This document shows, piece by piece, positions 14,759 to 51,694 of a stretch of 64,000 nucleotides of DNA. Source of the DNA: Agrococcus sediminis (lineage in GTDB: Bacteria; Actinomycetota; Actinomycetes; Actinomycetales; Microbacteriaceae); NCBI RefSeq assembly GCF_007923295.1, contig NZ_VOIR01000015.1, forward strand, positions 138,161 to 202,160. Reading direction: 5' to 3'. The position numbers and the translations under genes were made by a program. Below the pieces are notes generated by a model that saw only the letters and a program-made list of their open reading frames with translations, did not search any database and was not told where the DNA came from. Positions within the stretch are counted from its first letter, which is position 1. Each line of letters opens with the position of its first letter.

Positions 14759-14821
14759 CGCAGATATAGGGCCAACGGCTCGAATGCCGCCCCGATGAGC
14801 GCCACTGTCCCTATATCTGCG
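14759..14821. repeat. Palindrome upstream of the DUF559 gene
   Basis: Perfect 13-base arms (14759-14771 and 14809-14821, core GCAGATATAGGG) with further partial pairing inwards. It shares the core CAGATRTAGGGCCA with the longer palindrome at 15897-15955 on the other side of the gene. It lies between two divergent genes, so it is not an obvious terminator. Confidence 0.7.
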
Positions 14822-14933: not shown

Positions 14934-15863
14934 ATGCGCCCCTCGACCCCGCTCCCCGAGCCGTTCGATCTCGGCGCGTTCCGCGTCGGCGAGGCGCTCG
15001 ACGAGGGCGTCGGGCGCGGCCGACTGCGCGGCTCCGACCTCGAGGCGCCCTTCCGCGGCGTGCGATCGCGCCCGATCACCGACGTCCAGGCGCTCGCGCT
15101 CGCCTACGCGGCGGCGATGCCTTCGCACCAGCTGTTCGGCGGCATCACCGCCGCCCGGCTCTGGGGCCTCCCCATCGCCGAGCGGTGGTCGCGCGGCGAG
15201 CCGCTCGTCGTCGCCCGGCCGCACCGCACCGCGCCCAGCGTCGTGCCCGGCACGCGACACATCGCCTTCGACCCGTCGCGGCTGCGGTCCACCGAGCTCG
15301 AGGGGCTCCGGCTCCTCGGCCCGCTCGCGACTGCGCTGACGCTCGCGCGCGAGCTGTCGCACGAGGCGCTCGTGCAGGTCGCCGATGCGCTGCTCACGCC
15401 GTCGCGCTCCTACCCGGGCCTGCGACTGGAGCGGAAGCCCGAGCGCGGCTATGCCACCCCACAGGAGCTCGACGCCTTCATCGCTCGGTGCGGGGGGCTG
15501 GCCGGGGTCGCGGCGCTGCGCGCTGCCGCGGCGGATGCGCGGGTCGGCGTCGACTCGAGGTTCGAGACGATCACGCGGCTGCTGATGGTCGAGGCGGGGC
15601 TGCCCGAGCCGGTCGTGCACCCGCCTGTCGTCGTCGACGGAGAGGAGTGGCACCCGGACCTCGGCTACCCGGAGCTGCGGATCGCGATCGAGTTCGAGGG
15701 CGACGGCCACCGCGACGAGCGGCAGTGGCACGTCGACATCGATCGCTACGCGCGCTTCGAGGCAGCCGGATGGACGACCGTGCGGGTCACGCGCAAGCAC
15801 ATGGCACGGCGTGGCGCGCACTTCGTGGAGCGCGTGCGCGCAGCGCGCGCCCGACGCGAGTGA
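14934..15863 (+). CDS. DUF559 / AbiEi-like protein with a nuclease-like C-terminus
   Basis: 309 residues. The first 200 resemble the actinobacterial AbiEi-type (type IV antitoxin-like) proteins: PITDVQALALAYAAAMPSHQ, then GGITAARLWGLPI. The C-terminal 100 residues match DUF559, a Vsr/PD-(D/E)xK-like fold, with HPDLGYPELRIAIEFEGDGH supplying candidate metal ligands. No cognate AbiEii toxin gene is next to it. Such genes often occur in several scattered copies in Microbacteriaceae. The ATG at 14934 is chosen because CATCCT sits at -12 to -7; an upstream ATG at 14844 is possible but codes for a low-complexity tail. Related palindromes flank the gene. Confidence 0.7.
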   Translation: MRPSTPLPEPFDLGAFRVGEALDEGVGRGRLRGSDLEAPFRGVRSRPITDVQALALAYAAAMPSHQLFGGITAARLWGLPIAERWSRGEPLVVARPHRTAPSVVPGTRHIAFDPSRLRSTELEGLRLLGPLATALTLARELSHEALVQVADALLTPSRSYPGLRLERKPERGYATPQELDAFIARCGGLAGVAALRAAAADARVGVDSRFETITRLLMVEAGLPEPVVHPPVVVDGEEWHPDLGYPELRIAIEFEGDGHRDERQWHVDIDRYARFEAAGWTTVRVTRKHMARRGAHFVERVRAARARRE

Positions 15864-15896: not shown

Positions 15897-15955
15897 CAGA
15901 TGTAGGGCCAGTGGCTCCTACCCTCGCGGGATGGGAGCCACTGGCCCTACATCTG
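15897..15955. terminator. Very long perfect hairpin between convergent genes
   Basis: 22-base perfectly complementary arms at 15897-15918 and 15934-15955 around a 15-base loop that itself can form CCC/GGG. It lies between the convergent DUF559 gene and pckG, so a bidirectional terminator is plausible. The arm sequence CAGATGTAGGGCCA also occurs, with one change, in the palindrome at 14759-14821, suggesting a mobile or recognised element rather than only a terminator. Confidence 0.7.
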
Positions 15956-35917: not shown

Positions 35918-37319
35918 GGTGACGTCCCCTGGGGTGGTGTAGTTCTCGGTGCTGAGTGTCACGTCGTTGACGTGGTGAGCCATCGTGCGATGGTCAGTGA
36001 GAACCGACTAAAGCTACTCACAGAAGGACACAACGCACGATGGCTCTTGACCAGTCTGCCCTCCTCGAGCTCCTCGGGGAGCTGAAACTCACCGATGTCA
36101 CCGATCGGATCCGGTCCGCGACCGAGACGCTCTACCAGGAGCTGATCGATGCGGAGGCGGCCGCGTTCATCGGCGCGGCCCCGTTCGAGCGCAGCCCGGA
36201 CCGGGTGGCGCAGCGCAACGGCGCCCGCCCGCGCACGCTCACGACGACGGCGGGCGAGCTCGACCTGCGGATCCCGAAGCTGCGGCAGGGATCGTTCTTC
36301 CCGTCGCTGCTGGAGCGGCGCCGCCGCGTCGACCAGGCGCTGTTCGCGGTGGTGATGGAGGCGTACGTGCACGGCGTCTCCACCCGCAAGGTCGACGATC
36401 TCGTCAAGGCGCTCGGCGCCGACACCGGCATCTCCAAGTCCGAGGTGTCTCGCATCTGCGCCAACCTCGACGAGGACGTCGCCGCGTTCCGCGACCGGCC
36501 GCTGGCCGGGCAGGCGTACCCGTACGTGTTCCTCGACGCCACCTACTGCAAGGCGCGGGTGGGCCGCCGGGTGGTGTCGCAGGCGATCGTGGTCGCCGTC
36601 GGCGTGGCCGCGGACGGGCGCCGCGAGATCCTCGGCTTCGAGGTCGGCGAGACCGAGTCGCAGCCGTTCTGGACCACGTTCCTGCGGTCGTTGAAGGCGC
36701 GCGGGCTCGGCGGCGTGCAGCTGGTCATCTCCGACGCCCACACCGGCCTGATCGCGGCGATCGAGGCCGTGTTCGCCGGCGCCTCCTGGCAGCGCTGCCG
36801 CGTTCACTTCATGCGCAACGTGCTCTCGAACGTGCCGAAGACGGCCGGGCCGATGGTCGCCTCGATCATCCGCACGATCTTCGCCCAGCCGGACGCCGAG
36901 CACGTGCTGGGCCAGTTCGGAGAGGTCGCCGCGATGCTCACCCGCTCCCACCCGAAGATCGCCGCGATGCTCGACGACGCCCGCGACGACCTGCTCGCGT
37001 TCAGGCAGTTCCCGGTCGCGCACTGGCGACAGATCTGGTCCACGAACCCGCTCGAGCGCGTCAACAAGGAGATCAAGCGCCGCACCGACGTGGTCGGCAC
37101 CTTCCCCAACCCCGCCGCGCTGCTGCGCCTGGCAGGCCACGTCCTCATCGAGCAGCACGACGAATGGGACGGCGCCGACCGCCGCTACTTCAGCGAACGC
37201 TCCATGGCACTGCTGACCGCCGAACACGAGGAGGTAGCCATCCCCGAACTCGCCGCCGCATAATGAACCAACTGACCCGCACGGTGTCGACAAACTCCAC
37301 CACTCAGCGGGACGTCACC
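35918..37319 (+). mobile_element. Complete IS256-family insertion sequence, 1402 bp
   Basis: Terminal inverted repeats start GGTGACGTCCC (35918) and end GGGACGTCACC (37319): 11 perfect bases, then a further 16 with about two-thirds matching. A 9-base direct repeat GGCTCGACC flanks it (35909-35917 and 37320-37328), the usual duplication size for IS256 elements. One intact transposase gene fills it. The same 9 bases occur in every unit of the surrounding array, so recombination between units is a less likely alternative to true target duplication. Confidence 0.93.
36040..37263 (+). CDS. IS256-family transposase
   Basis: 407 residues, full length. DDE catalytic residues are visible: Asp166 in YVFLDATY, Asp232 in LVISDAHTG and Glu339 in STNPLERVNKEIKRRT. 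The C/H pattern WQRCRVHFMRN between the second Asp and the Glu is a family hallmark. It moves the element by a cut-and-paste or circular route. No frameshift or stop is seen, so it is probably active. ATG preceded by AGAAGGA. Confidence 0.96.
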   Translation: MALDQSALLELLGELKLTDVTDRIRSATETLYQELIDAEAAAFIGAAPFERSPDRVAQRNGARPRTLTTTAGELDLRIPKLRQGSFFPSLLERRRRVDQALFAVVMEAYVHGVSTRKVDDLVKALGADTGISKSEVSRICANLDEDVAAFRDRPLAGQAYPYVFLDATYCKARVGRRVVSQAIVVAVGVAADGRREILGFEVGETESQPFWTTFLRSLKARGLGGVQLVISDAHTGLIAAIEAVFAGASWQRCRVHFMRNVLSNVPKTAGPMVASIIRTIFAQPDAEHVLGQFGEVAAMLTRSHPKIAAMLDDARDDLLAFRQFPVAHWRQIWSTNPLERVNKEIKRRTDVVGTFPNPAALLRLAGHVLIEQHDEWDGADRRYFSERSMALLTAEHEEVAIPELAAA

Positions 37320-37328
37320 GGCTCGACC

Positions 37329-37602
37329 AGCGGAGTGGCGGCGACGGAGTGGTCTCGACTCGGTCCGCGCGCTGCGCGCACGGACCGGCTCGACCAGCGG
37401 AGTGGCGGGCGCCGGAGTGGTCTCGACTCGGTCCGCGCGCTGCGCGCACGGACCGGCTCGACCAGCGGAGTGGCGGCGACGGGGTGGTCTCGACTCGGGC
37501 CGCGCGCTGCGCGCACGGACCGGCTCGACCAGCGGAGTGGCGGCGCCGGAGTGGTCTCGACTCGGGCCGCGCGCTTCGCGCACGGACCGGCTCGACCAGC
37601 GG
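37329..37602 (+). repeat. Tandem array of 67-bp palindromic units
   Basis: The motif GGTCTCGACTCGG starts at 37351, 37419, 37486 and 37553 (steps 68, 67, 67). Each unit contains a GGTCCGCGCGC/GCGCGCACGGACC inner palindrome and ends CGGCTCGACCAGCGG. With the split unit left of the IS there are five copies. The array separates the convergent argS and mpg-type genes. Confidence 0.9.
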
Positions 37603-37612
37603 GGCGGCGGCG

Positions 37613-50544: not shown

Positions 50545-50925
50545 ATGCGCCCCCGCACCGGGTGGGCCGTGCTGCTCGGCAGCGCCGTGCTCGAGGCCGT
50601 CTGGGCGACGGCGATGGGGGAGTCGGAGGGCTTCAGCCGACCGATCCCGACCCTGGTGTTCGCCGTCGCAGCGATCGCGAGCTTCATCGGCCTCGAGCGG
50701 GCCGTGCAGACGCTCCCGCTCGCGACCGGCTACGCCGTCTGGACGGGCGTCGGCGGCGCCCTCACCGTGCTCTGGGCGATCGCCACGGGCGCGCAGCCGT
50801 GGAGCCCGCTGACGCTCCTCTTCCTCGCCGGGATCCTGGTCGCGGTGGCGGGCCTCGCGCTCACCGAGCGCCCGCATGCTGCGCCCGCGTCCCCGGACCG
50901 GCCCGCCGCATCCGACCCCGCCTGA
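50545..50925 (+). CDS. SMR-family exporter subunit, partner
   Basis: 126 residues, four helices with Glu17 in GSAVLEAVWATAM and LATGYAVWTGVGGALTVLW in helix 3. A 20-residue Pro/Ala/Asp tail extends beyond helix 4. It starts one base after the first SMR stop. Paired SMR genes encode proteins that insert in opposite orientations and function as heterodimers; this arrangement fits. Confidence 0.88.
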   Translation: MRPRTGWAVLLGSAVLEAVWATAMGESEGFSRPIPTLVFAVAAIASFIGLERAVQTLPLATGYAVWTGVGGALTVLWAIATGAQPWSPLTLLFLAGILVAVAGLALTERPHAAPASPDRPAASDPA

Positions 50926-50950: not shown

Positions 50951-51086
50951 TGAGTGGCGCTCCCGGCGATCGAGTGGCGCCCTGCAGCATCGAGTGGCGC
51001 TTCCCGGCATCGAGTGGCGCCTGCGGCGATCGAGTGGCGCCACTCGACCGCACAGCGCGCCACTCGATCGCGCAAGGCGCCACTCG
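50951..51086. repeat. 20-bp-phased array that switches orientation at a perfect palindrome
   Basis: The nonamer GAGTGGCGC starts at 50952, 50972, 50992, 51012 and 51032 (exactly 20 bases apart). Its reverse complement GCGCCACTC starts at 51037, 51057 and 51077, again 20 apart. The turning point is the perfect 18-base palindrome 51030-51047. Most copies extend to the 12-mer ATCGAGTGGCGC, separated by 8 variable bases. It fills the gap between the convergent SMR pair and cysE. See findings. Confidence 0.93.
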
Positions 51087-51139
51087 ATGGCGCGAGCCCG
51101 GCACGCGGCGCGCGGCCGCCGCGGCTCAGAGCGAGCGGC

Positions 51140-51694
51140 TCAGATCGAGTACTCGATCTGCGGCAGCTCGGCGGGCGACGTGCGCGCGACCGGCTTGGCG
51201 GGCACGCCCACGAGCGTCGTCCCGGAGGGCGCGTCGTGCAGCACGACGGCGTTCGCGCCGACCCGCACGTCGTCGCCGAGCGCGATCGGCCCGAGGATCT
51301 TGGCGCCGGCGCCCACGAGCACGCGGTGCCCGAGCGTCGGGTGCCGCTTCACGGCCGCGTTCGCCGTGCCGCCGAGCGTCACGCCGTGGTAGAGCATCAC
51401 GTCGTCGCCGACCTCGGCGGTCTCGCCGATCACGACGCCCATGCCGTGGTCGATGAAGAACCGCCGCCCGAGCCGCGCGCCCGGGTGGATCTCGACGCCC
51501 GTCATGAAGCGCGCGAACTGGCTGCCGGCGCGCGCGATCGAGCGCGCTCCGGCGTGCCAGAGGCGGTGGTTGACGCGGTGGGCCCACACGGCGTGGAGGG
51601 TCGAGTAGGTGAGCGCGATCGACAGCGCCCCGCGGGCGGCAGGATCGTGCCGCCGCGCGTTCTCGATGTCCTCGCGGACGTTGAGCAGGCCCAT
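51140..51694 (-). CDS. cysE: Serine O-acetyltransferase
   Basis: Makes O-acetylserine from serine and acetyl-CoA, the acceptor for sulfide in cysteine synthesis. 184 residues, the short EpsC-type. An N-terminal helical part precedes a left-handed beta helix of hexapeptide repeats (VEIHPGARLGRRFFIDHGMGVVIGETAEVGDDVMLYHGVTLGG, with the catalytic His/Asp region). It ends PQIEYSI, whose C-terminal Ile is what inserts into the CysK active site in cysteine synthase complexes. It follows cysK by 11 bases in the same operon. Confidence 0.94.
   Translation of the reverse strand: MGLLNVREDIENARRHDPAARGALSIALTYSTLHAVWAHRVNHRLWHAGARSIARAGSQFARFMTGVEIHPGARLGRRFFIDHGMGVVIGETAEVGDDVMLYHGVTLGGTANAAVKRHPTLGHRVLVGAGAKILGPIALGDDVRVGANAVVLHDAPSGTTLVGVPAKPVARTSPAELPQIEYSI

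Follow-up and report, generated by a model that had tools for sequence, protein, structure and literature searches.

A phased array of short repeats in the window, a 64,000-nucleotide stretch of DNA from Agrococcus sediminis, is probably a dispersed repeat copy of a module in which a nuclease-like gene is flanked by inverted repeats. The gene, N1, is located outside the window in the same genome (G000). When the sequences are compared across Agrococcus, the arrays are seen to form a genome-wide family whose phasing, inward order, location at gene ends and dialects are shared features, and which brackets N1 and co-occurs with it. That N1 or a partner would bind, cut and copy the repeats is the reading developed below.

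The array in the window lies between the convergent ends of an SMR gene (+) and a cysE-like gene (-), as the preliminary description, made from the letters alone, had claimed (Table 1). That description also counted five direct and three inverted copies of one motif at an exact 20-bp step, and all positions were confirmed: GAGTGGCGC has eight exact matches in the window, all of them in this array, and within each half one unit follows the next at precisely 20 bp. The 12-mer said to be mostly shared, ATCGAGTGGCGC, is intact in 6 of the 8 units, with deviations in the first direct and the first inverted units, and the halves do meet in a perfect 18-bp palindrome, which is also present at two other sites, L059 and L063, and in a form differing by a single base at L058. 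Judged by eye, the array is oriented inward. The repeats were held to be too short for CRISPR, and this is borne out by a core of 9-12 bp and recurring spacers of 8-11 bp; CRISPR repeats are described as 24-48 bp long with non-repetitive spacers between them (PMC3733652), and a CRISPR-like array was rejected on unit size.

Table 1. Features of the window array, the nuclease-like gene N1 and the related gene N3 (window coordinates unless a contig is given)
Feature	Position	Strand	Basis or remark
Five direct units, cores starting at 50952, 50972, 50992, 51012, 51032	50952..51040	+	exact-match search
Three inverted units, cores starting at 51037, 51057, 51077	51037..51087	-	exact-match search
18-bp palindrome TCGAGTGGCGCCACTCGA	51030..51047	.	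junction of array halves
SMR (small multidrug resistance) gene, left convergent neighbour	50545..50925	+	PF00893
cysE-like hexapeptide transferase gene, right convergent neighbour	51140..51694	-	hexapeptide repeats
N3, second DUF559/MTES_1575-type nuclease-like gene, start maybe 14844	14934..15863	+	31% identical to N1
Left inverted repeat of N3, CGCAGATATAGGGCCA ... TGTCCCTATATCTGCG	14759..14821	.	
Right inverted repeat of N3, CAGATGTAGGGCCAGTGGCTC ... GAGCCACTGGCCCTACATCTG	15897..15955	.	
N1, nuclease-like gene, 296 aa	G000 C13:138082-138972 (beyond the window)		weak C-terminal domain match

By searching G000 (2.74 Mb, 19 contigs) for GAGTGGCGC-N11-GAGTGGCGC, 56 pairs were found at 11 sites, none of them on the 660-kb contig C1. 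The reversed-pattern control gave 0 pairs against these 56, and chance is therefore ruled out for the window array. Among the 60 genomes searched, the exact phased pair occurs in 13 of 24 Agrococcus genomes (G000 included) and in 0 of 36 others. A sequence-only model of three array units (R1), for which the best 150 candidates per Agrococcus genome were scored, was combined with the pattern, and together they place arrays in 19 of the 24 genomes; sites in G012 and G016 beyond those of the first search number at least 20. The preliminary description would have been refuted by a motif confined to this one place and not conserved in close relatives; the motif is in fact widespread and conserved. 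As for the remaining five genomes, G002 and G013 gave no model match genome-wide (best 150 candidates scored), and the incomplete genomes G003, G010 and G015 have no exact phased pair genome-wide and gave weak model matches at most at the examined loci. A 279-kb portion of G010 holds one weak model match, at cysE, and no N1 relative. G010 has no array at rpsT where its sister G001 has one, keeps short remnants at cysE and pdtaR where G001 has arrays, and at the fourth G001 array site has a single inverted pair, CAGTGGTCACG ... CGTGACCACTG, of the G001 dialect. In the array-less G002 and G010, GGTACCG inverted repeats are located at rpsT (both) and at cysE (G002); they resemble a repeat beside L490, one of the genes related to N1.

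In a public scan, the phased pair was present in 99 stretches; among the 80 listed, 46 are from Agrococcus and 34 from other organisms, and 33 of these 34 hold a single matching pair. Runs of at least three units occur at 5 of the 34 outside loci listed (L078, L098, L104, L116 and L139), and no N1 relative was found at the outside loci carrying short 20-bp GAGTGGCGC arrays. Short 20-bp-stepped arrays arise outside Agrococcus too, by chance or otherwise. In the family sample, R1 matched at least 5 of 6 Agrococcus genomes and at least 5 of 293 others, with the best 18 candidates per genome scored, so that weak cases may escape; among the five non-Agrococcus genomes, just one matched more than once within these candidates. 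No exact phased pair occurs in viral_contigs and no N1 homologue was present among phage records, and on these grounds a phage origin was rejected. GAGTGGYGC repeats with a 20-bp step are present at L139 (Cellulomonas telluris) and at L094 and L125 (Aeromicrobium endophyticum), where each locus has two direct units and then an inverted one; in both genera they may be related or due to chance. L320, from a different genus of the same family, carries a 20-bp repeat, TGAGTGGCCCCCTCGGTCCC, in about 9.6 copies, adjoining a TGAGCTTGTCGAAGG inverted repeat.

The order and spacing of the units are highly regular. Among 77 clusters in twelve genomes, 45 two-sided ones were scored for order: 42 point inward, 1 points outward and 2 have a mixed order. 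A further 19 have units on one side alone, and 13, including the window array, were left unscored because their cores overlap on both strands. Consecutive cores no more than 70 bp apart are separated by exactly 20 bp in 666 of 767 cases and by a multiple of 20 in 704. Of the 137 spacings in five deep-branching genomes, 55 do not fall on a multiple of 20 and mostly measure 10, 21-22, 32, 41-42 or 61-63 bp. These odd spacings cluster helically, with a best period of 10.3 and an R of 0.82 at 10.5 bp; since some stem from copied modules, the set is partly non-independent. In the main clade, 47 of 728 spacings are odd and helical clustering is absent (R 0.16). By comparing the array consensuses of G000, it was found that positions 1-8, 19 and 20 of the unit never differ and that positions 11-14, 16 and 17 differ in 27-53% of array pairs; core conservation is somewhat overstated here, since units were located by the core pattern, and the comparison excludes L348, L350 and L354, whose cores match on either strand, as well as runs that fall out of phase anywhere or contain under 3 units. 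These data bear on the idea that the arrays are neutral minisatellites which grow by slippage and are tolerated at gene ends. Slippage-like growth is seen in ABAB higher-order repeats and in runs of up to 45 copies, but slippage does not account for the unequal conservation of unit positions, between and within arrays, for a spacing that holds at 20 although the spacers have diverged, or for the inward order; we regard this explanation as highly improbable. The longest run seen, with 45 units, is L073:3921-4820 in G012.

Copy number differs between species and the core is conserved; orthologous gene ends (rpsT, pdtaR-like, cysE and rsfS) keep the array while the core changes. Three core dialects were distinguished, namely GAGTGGCGC, GAGYGGTCAC and GAGTGGCCAC/GATTGGCCAC. 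With GGCG-pattern sites and model-found sites counted together, one dialect dominates in G000 (19/19 arrays), G001 (17/18), G006 (11/11), G011 (9/9) and G012 (24/25), and G016 (22 and 4), G020, G014 and G008 are mixed. On a species tree built from five proteins of the 24 genomes (812 columns), the dialects show a scattered distribution: the GGCG genome G019 has the GGCC pair G011 plus G018 as its sister group, and the mostly GGTC genome G016 falls together with G014 and G022, which are mostly GGCG.

The preliminary description raised the question of whether the arrays always lie at convergent gene ends, and this is mostly so. At 40 distinct sites in four genomes (41 minus L361, which duplicates L071), 25 gene pairs are convergent, 13 codirectional and 2 divergent, compared with 74 convergent pairs among 529 at least 60 bp apart in the G000 stretches examined; the contexts come from a simple custom gene caller and the background from one genome. 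Such a context is what would be expected of a bidirectional terminator or 3'-end stabiliser, in which the opposed arms pair as a long RNA hairpin and the nuclease gene is incidental, and a hairpin had indeed been put forward as an alternative in the preliminary description. Two-sided sites fit the proposal: their predicted folding is much stronger than that of dinucleotide shuffles (mean z -10.6, n=18), and the window array itself folds at -89.7 kcal/mol (z -6.9). By a crude scan, 4 of the 40 sites have a separate hairpin plus T-rich tail and 36 have none, with none outside the array at the window site; the same scan overlooked the terminator of L061. In addition, other species carry different inverted repeats at the same gene ends, and 3 of 14 one-sided sites fold (L347, L356 and L364; z -4.4 to -5.1). 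On the other hand, the folding of half-arrays on average barely exceeds that of shuffles (mean z -0.94, n=61), 9 of the 14 one-sided sites have z values from -0.8 to +1.7, including one with 16 units, and at rpsT an intrinsic terminator, identified by eye, already precedes the array in G000, G001, G012, G017 and G018. An ordinary terminator as the sole account was rejected on the basis of the rpsT terminators and the mostly unfolded half-arrays. Moreover, hairpin formation would not call for exact 20-bp steps, for a uniform core at unlinked sites or for joint absence with N1. Taken as a whole, the terminator or stabiliser explanation is unlikely; it is possible that two-sided arrays end transcription from both sides.

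The gene linked to the arrays, N1, is located between convergent thioesterase-like and pdtaR-like genes (named by eye from sequence). Its C-terminal third matches PF18741 (REase_MTES_1575) weakly in G000, at 24.9 bits against a cut-off of 38.2; PF04480 (DUF559) is matched weakly in G000 (20.1 bits, cut-off 20.6) and above the cut-off in G019 (21.7 bits). Searches of NCBIfam (G000) and of PHROGs and PADLOC (G019) returned weak matches, some to endonucleases, and a PDB profile search gave 7 weak matches, the best being to the endonuclease-like 3hrl (E 0.12). The AlphaFold model of the G019 orthologue, built from a six-sequence alignment, has a pLDDT of 46.8, too low to inform on the fold. From these weak matches, the C-terminal domain is putatively of the PD-(D/E)XK type and DUF559/MTES_1575-like.

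N1 occupies one conserved site in 19 of the 24 Agrococcus genomes, and these are the same 19 that carry arrays. It is missing at its locus in G002, G003, G010, G013 and G015, where it was sought at that locus and, for G010, in the 279 kb as well. On the species tree, G002 and G010, which lack both arrays and N1, are placed beside the carriers G007 and G001. At E values up to 0.01, array-model matches flank N1 on both sides in 16 of the 19 carriers, one of the two matches being weak in G005 and G008, on a single side in G009 and G017, and on neither in G023; by eye, the arms beside N1 are shorter or diverged in these last three genomes. In G000, the arrays around N1 form an inward pair. In G006, N1 is frame-shifted near residue 155 (L400) and the genome has at least 46 array-model matches, which counts against a constant need for N1.

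The relation of the N1 allele to the dialect was also considered. The N1 tree unites the main-clade GGTC genomes G001, G006 and G020 (support 89), which the species tree keeps separate, and that tree is rejected by the N1 alignment (AU p 1.2e-7); given this conflict, the gene has probably been exchanged between species. With dialects assigned from the flanking arrays, 5 changes are required on the N1 tree (shuffled mean 7.3, P 0.018), and with dialects assigned by genome majority, 6 (P 0.059); on the species tree the corresponding numbers are 6 (P 0.13) and 7 (P 0.23). These comparisons are suggestive, not strong, evidence that the N1 allele tracks the array dialect, and the flank result could reflect the fact that N1 is physically linked to the arrays beside it. 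In G016, 22 of 26 arrays are GGTC, but its N1 allele falls with those of G014 and G022, both GGCG genomes, and is flanked by GGCG arrays. Residue 99 of N1, chosen by eye from a ranked list and offered as a lead only, is R in 8/8 GGTC/GGCC genomes and H, Q or V in 10/11 GGCG genomes (G023 is the exception).

In iterons and other phased regulator sites, direct sites lie about two helical turns apart. The Agrococcus arrays share this spacing, but they are dispersed at gene ends and consist of two facing halves. If the arrays instead bound, cooperatively, a roadblock or chromosome-organising protein of the host and N1 played no part, this would suit the conserved core, the variable spacers, the strict two-turn step and the largely genome-wide dialects. 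However, it leaves unexplained the bracketing of N1 in 16 of 19 carriers, its joint absence with the arrays, and the unrelated inverted repeats that bracket homologous genes elsewhere, and we consider it distinctly unlikely.

Such bracketing was found around further genes. Four DUF559/MTES_1575-type nuclease-like genes were found in 1.32 Mb of G000: N1, L498, N3 and L490. The L498 copy (54% identity to N1) is bracketed by TCGATTGGTCACGAA inverted repeats that are similar in sequence to N1's core, and two further copies of this repeat are dispersed. N3, in the window, has CAGATRTAGGGCCA inverted repeats on both sides plus one dispersed copy elsewhere, and no match among plasmid records; it is a parallel module, not a partner of the window array. 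L490 has an inverted repeat of this type on a single side. In G011 and G019, a further gene, N2, adjoins a phosphoglycerate-mutase-like gene and has AGTTGAGG ... CCTCAACT on both sides, with two arms 19 bp apart in G019. Among six homologues outside the genus, all from plasmid records, inverted repeats of their own families bracket 3 of 3 in Arthrobacter, 2 of 2 in Tsukamurella and 0 of 1 in Nonomuraea, and the copy of Arthrobacter ERGS1:01 has three direct arms at 31-bp steps. In all, related repeats bracket 9 of 11 distinct modules (N1, L498, N3, N2, H1-H3, H11 and H12; not L490 or H13).

How unusual such flanks are was gauged with a score, the best local alignment of a gene's 300-bp flanks, for 1061 genes; it was adopted after the result of a strict test for inverted repeats (exact 10-mers), judged too strict, had been seen, in which 2 of 9 nuclease loci and 1 other of 1058 genes passed. 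The number of genes scoring at least as high as the module flanks is 0 for N1, 10 for L498, 12 for N3 and 107 for L490; it is 7, 7 and 5 for the Arthrobacter copies and 6 and 4 for N2. The Tsukamurella copies score 47.5 and 45.5 and the Nonomuraea copy 14.5. About 1% of ordinary genes reach the scores found for the modules. At the top of the list stand three GIY-YIG nucleases (ranks 1, 2 and 4) and a Mutator-family transposase (rank 3), followed by a Na+/H+ exchanger, an acyl-CoA dehydrogenase and a STAND-type ATPase (ranks 5 to 7); from these last three it follows that dispersed repeats bracket some ordinary genes as well. Small GIY-YIG nuclease genes of G000 (L506:2355-2651, L456:14107-14463 and L482:10600-10908) have related inverted repeats on both sides, for example GCTGGTCGAGCC ... 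GAGTCGAGACC, and GTCTCGACTCG occurs 30 times in the G000 stretches examined. These genes may represent another class of enzyme that shares this layout.

To our knowledge, REP/RAYT is the main model of one bacterial enzyme gene shaping a population of short repeats at gene ends. REPs and REPINs are, according to the parts of the literature consulted, dispersed short inverted-repeat elements at mostly convergent or codirectional gene ends (PMC2817692; PMC3733652; PMC1525189), and RAYT genes are described as always flanked by two inverted REPs (PMC2817692), a layout like that of N1 in the 16 carriers with matches on both sides. The enzyme of the Agrococcus modules is instead DUF559/MTES_1575-like, and the arms are multiplied in phased direct arrays. 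The Y1 (HUH) transposase PF01797 was found in 0 of 24 Agrococcus genomes by a search positive in 5 of 14 controls, and by eye neither the GTAG nor the CGTC tag of REP is present in the unit consensus GAGYGGYSRCTYCCGC; membership of REP/RAYT was rejected for these two reasons.

Other dispersed short repeats were compared in the same manner. The uptake sequences (DUS) of Neisseriaceae also combine a short motif, genome-wide dialects and inverted pairs at terminators, and neisserial genomes are described as holding thousands of copies (PMC3630211); Agrococcus has tens of sites, arrayed at a 20-bp step, and a bracketed nuclease-like gene. An uptake-type signal akin to DUS/USS of Neisseria and Haemophilus would fit the short motif, the dialects and the frequent inverted pairs at gene ends, but G000 contains 132 GAGTGGCGC copies in 2.74 Mb against 163 of the reversed motif, and 83 of the 132 are in the 11 array sites. 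Since there is no genome-wide excess, a DNA uptake sequence was rejected, and we regard it as extremely improbable. The TAACTGA direct repeats of Beggiatoaceae likewise form many intergenic sets of short direct repeats, but these heptamers lie mostly just upstream of start codons, and neither inward array pairs nor a 20-bp step are mentioned in the parts consulted (PMC4679880). The preliminary description named no known element of this form, and open-access full text agrees with this: among the matches listed, there was no description of such arrays, of DUF559 with inverted repeats or of GIY-YIG with extragenic palindromic repeats, an absence that is a weak sign of novelty.

Based on the results presented above, the account that seems to us the most economical, and that we moderately favour, is a nuclease with its own gene-end repeat module, RAYT/REP-like, whose arms have been multiplied in helical phase. 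In such a mechanism, N1 or a partner would bind the arm (core GAGYGGYSNC), and bound copies would sit side by side on one DNA face, about two helical turns apart. Nicking or cutting, followed by repair, would copy the inverted-arm element to other gene ends and would also multiply the arms in 20-bp steps. Elements would then persist where harm is least, chiefly between convergent genes, and two-sided forms there may also terminate transcription from either side. Like binding, cutting and copying, any benefit to the host is a matter of inference.

A broader reading, to which we assign about an even chance, is that widespread and apparently undescribed modules, either mobile or domesticated, exist in Actinomycetes, in which small orphan nuclease genes of the DUF559/MTES_1575 type and, independently, of the GIY-YIG type are bracketed by their own families of inverted repeats and spread these to gene ends. 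As part of that reading, and with equal reserve, the Agrococcus arrays may be the form in which the arms have been multiplied into a helically phased binding platform, with recognition dialects passing between species along with the nuclease allele. Should an enzyme class unrelated to RAYT prove to act in this manner, the relation of an enzyme gene to gene-end repeats would have evolved more than once; orphan DUF559-type genes would gain a role, and species-specific inverted repeats at convergent gene ends would be partly explained. Dialects that differ between close species offer a natural test of protein-DNA co-evolution.

Two smaller observations concern the surroundings of these genes. A DnaA-box-like sequence, TTATCCACA, is located near the start of the Arthrobacter copies with 0 mismatches in 3 of 3, a state seen in none of 236 control genes; upstream of N1 in the 19 genomes it has 1 mismatch in 8, 2 in 7, 3 in 3 and 4 in 1. 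In the window, a Mutator-family transposase gene at 36040-37263 is adjoined at 37317-37612 by 4.4 copies of a 67-bp repeat containing GAGTGG and GTCTCGACTCG, and the gene has a similar repeat on the opposite side.
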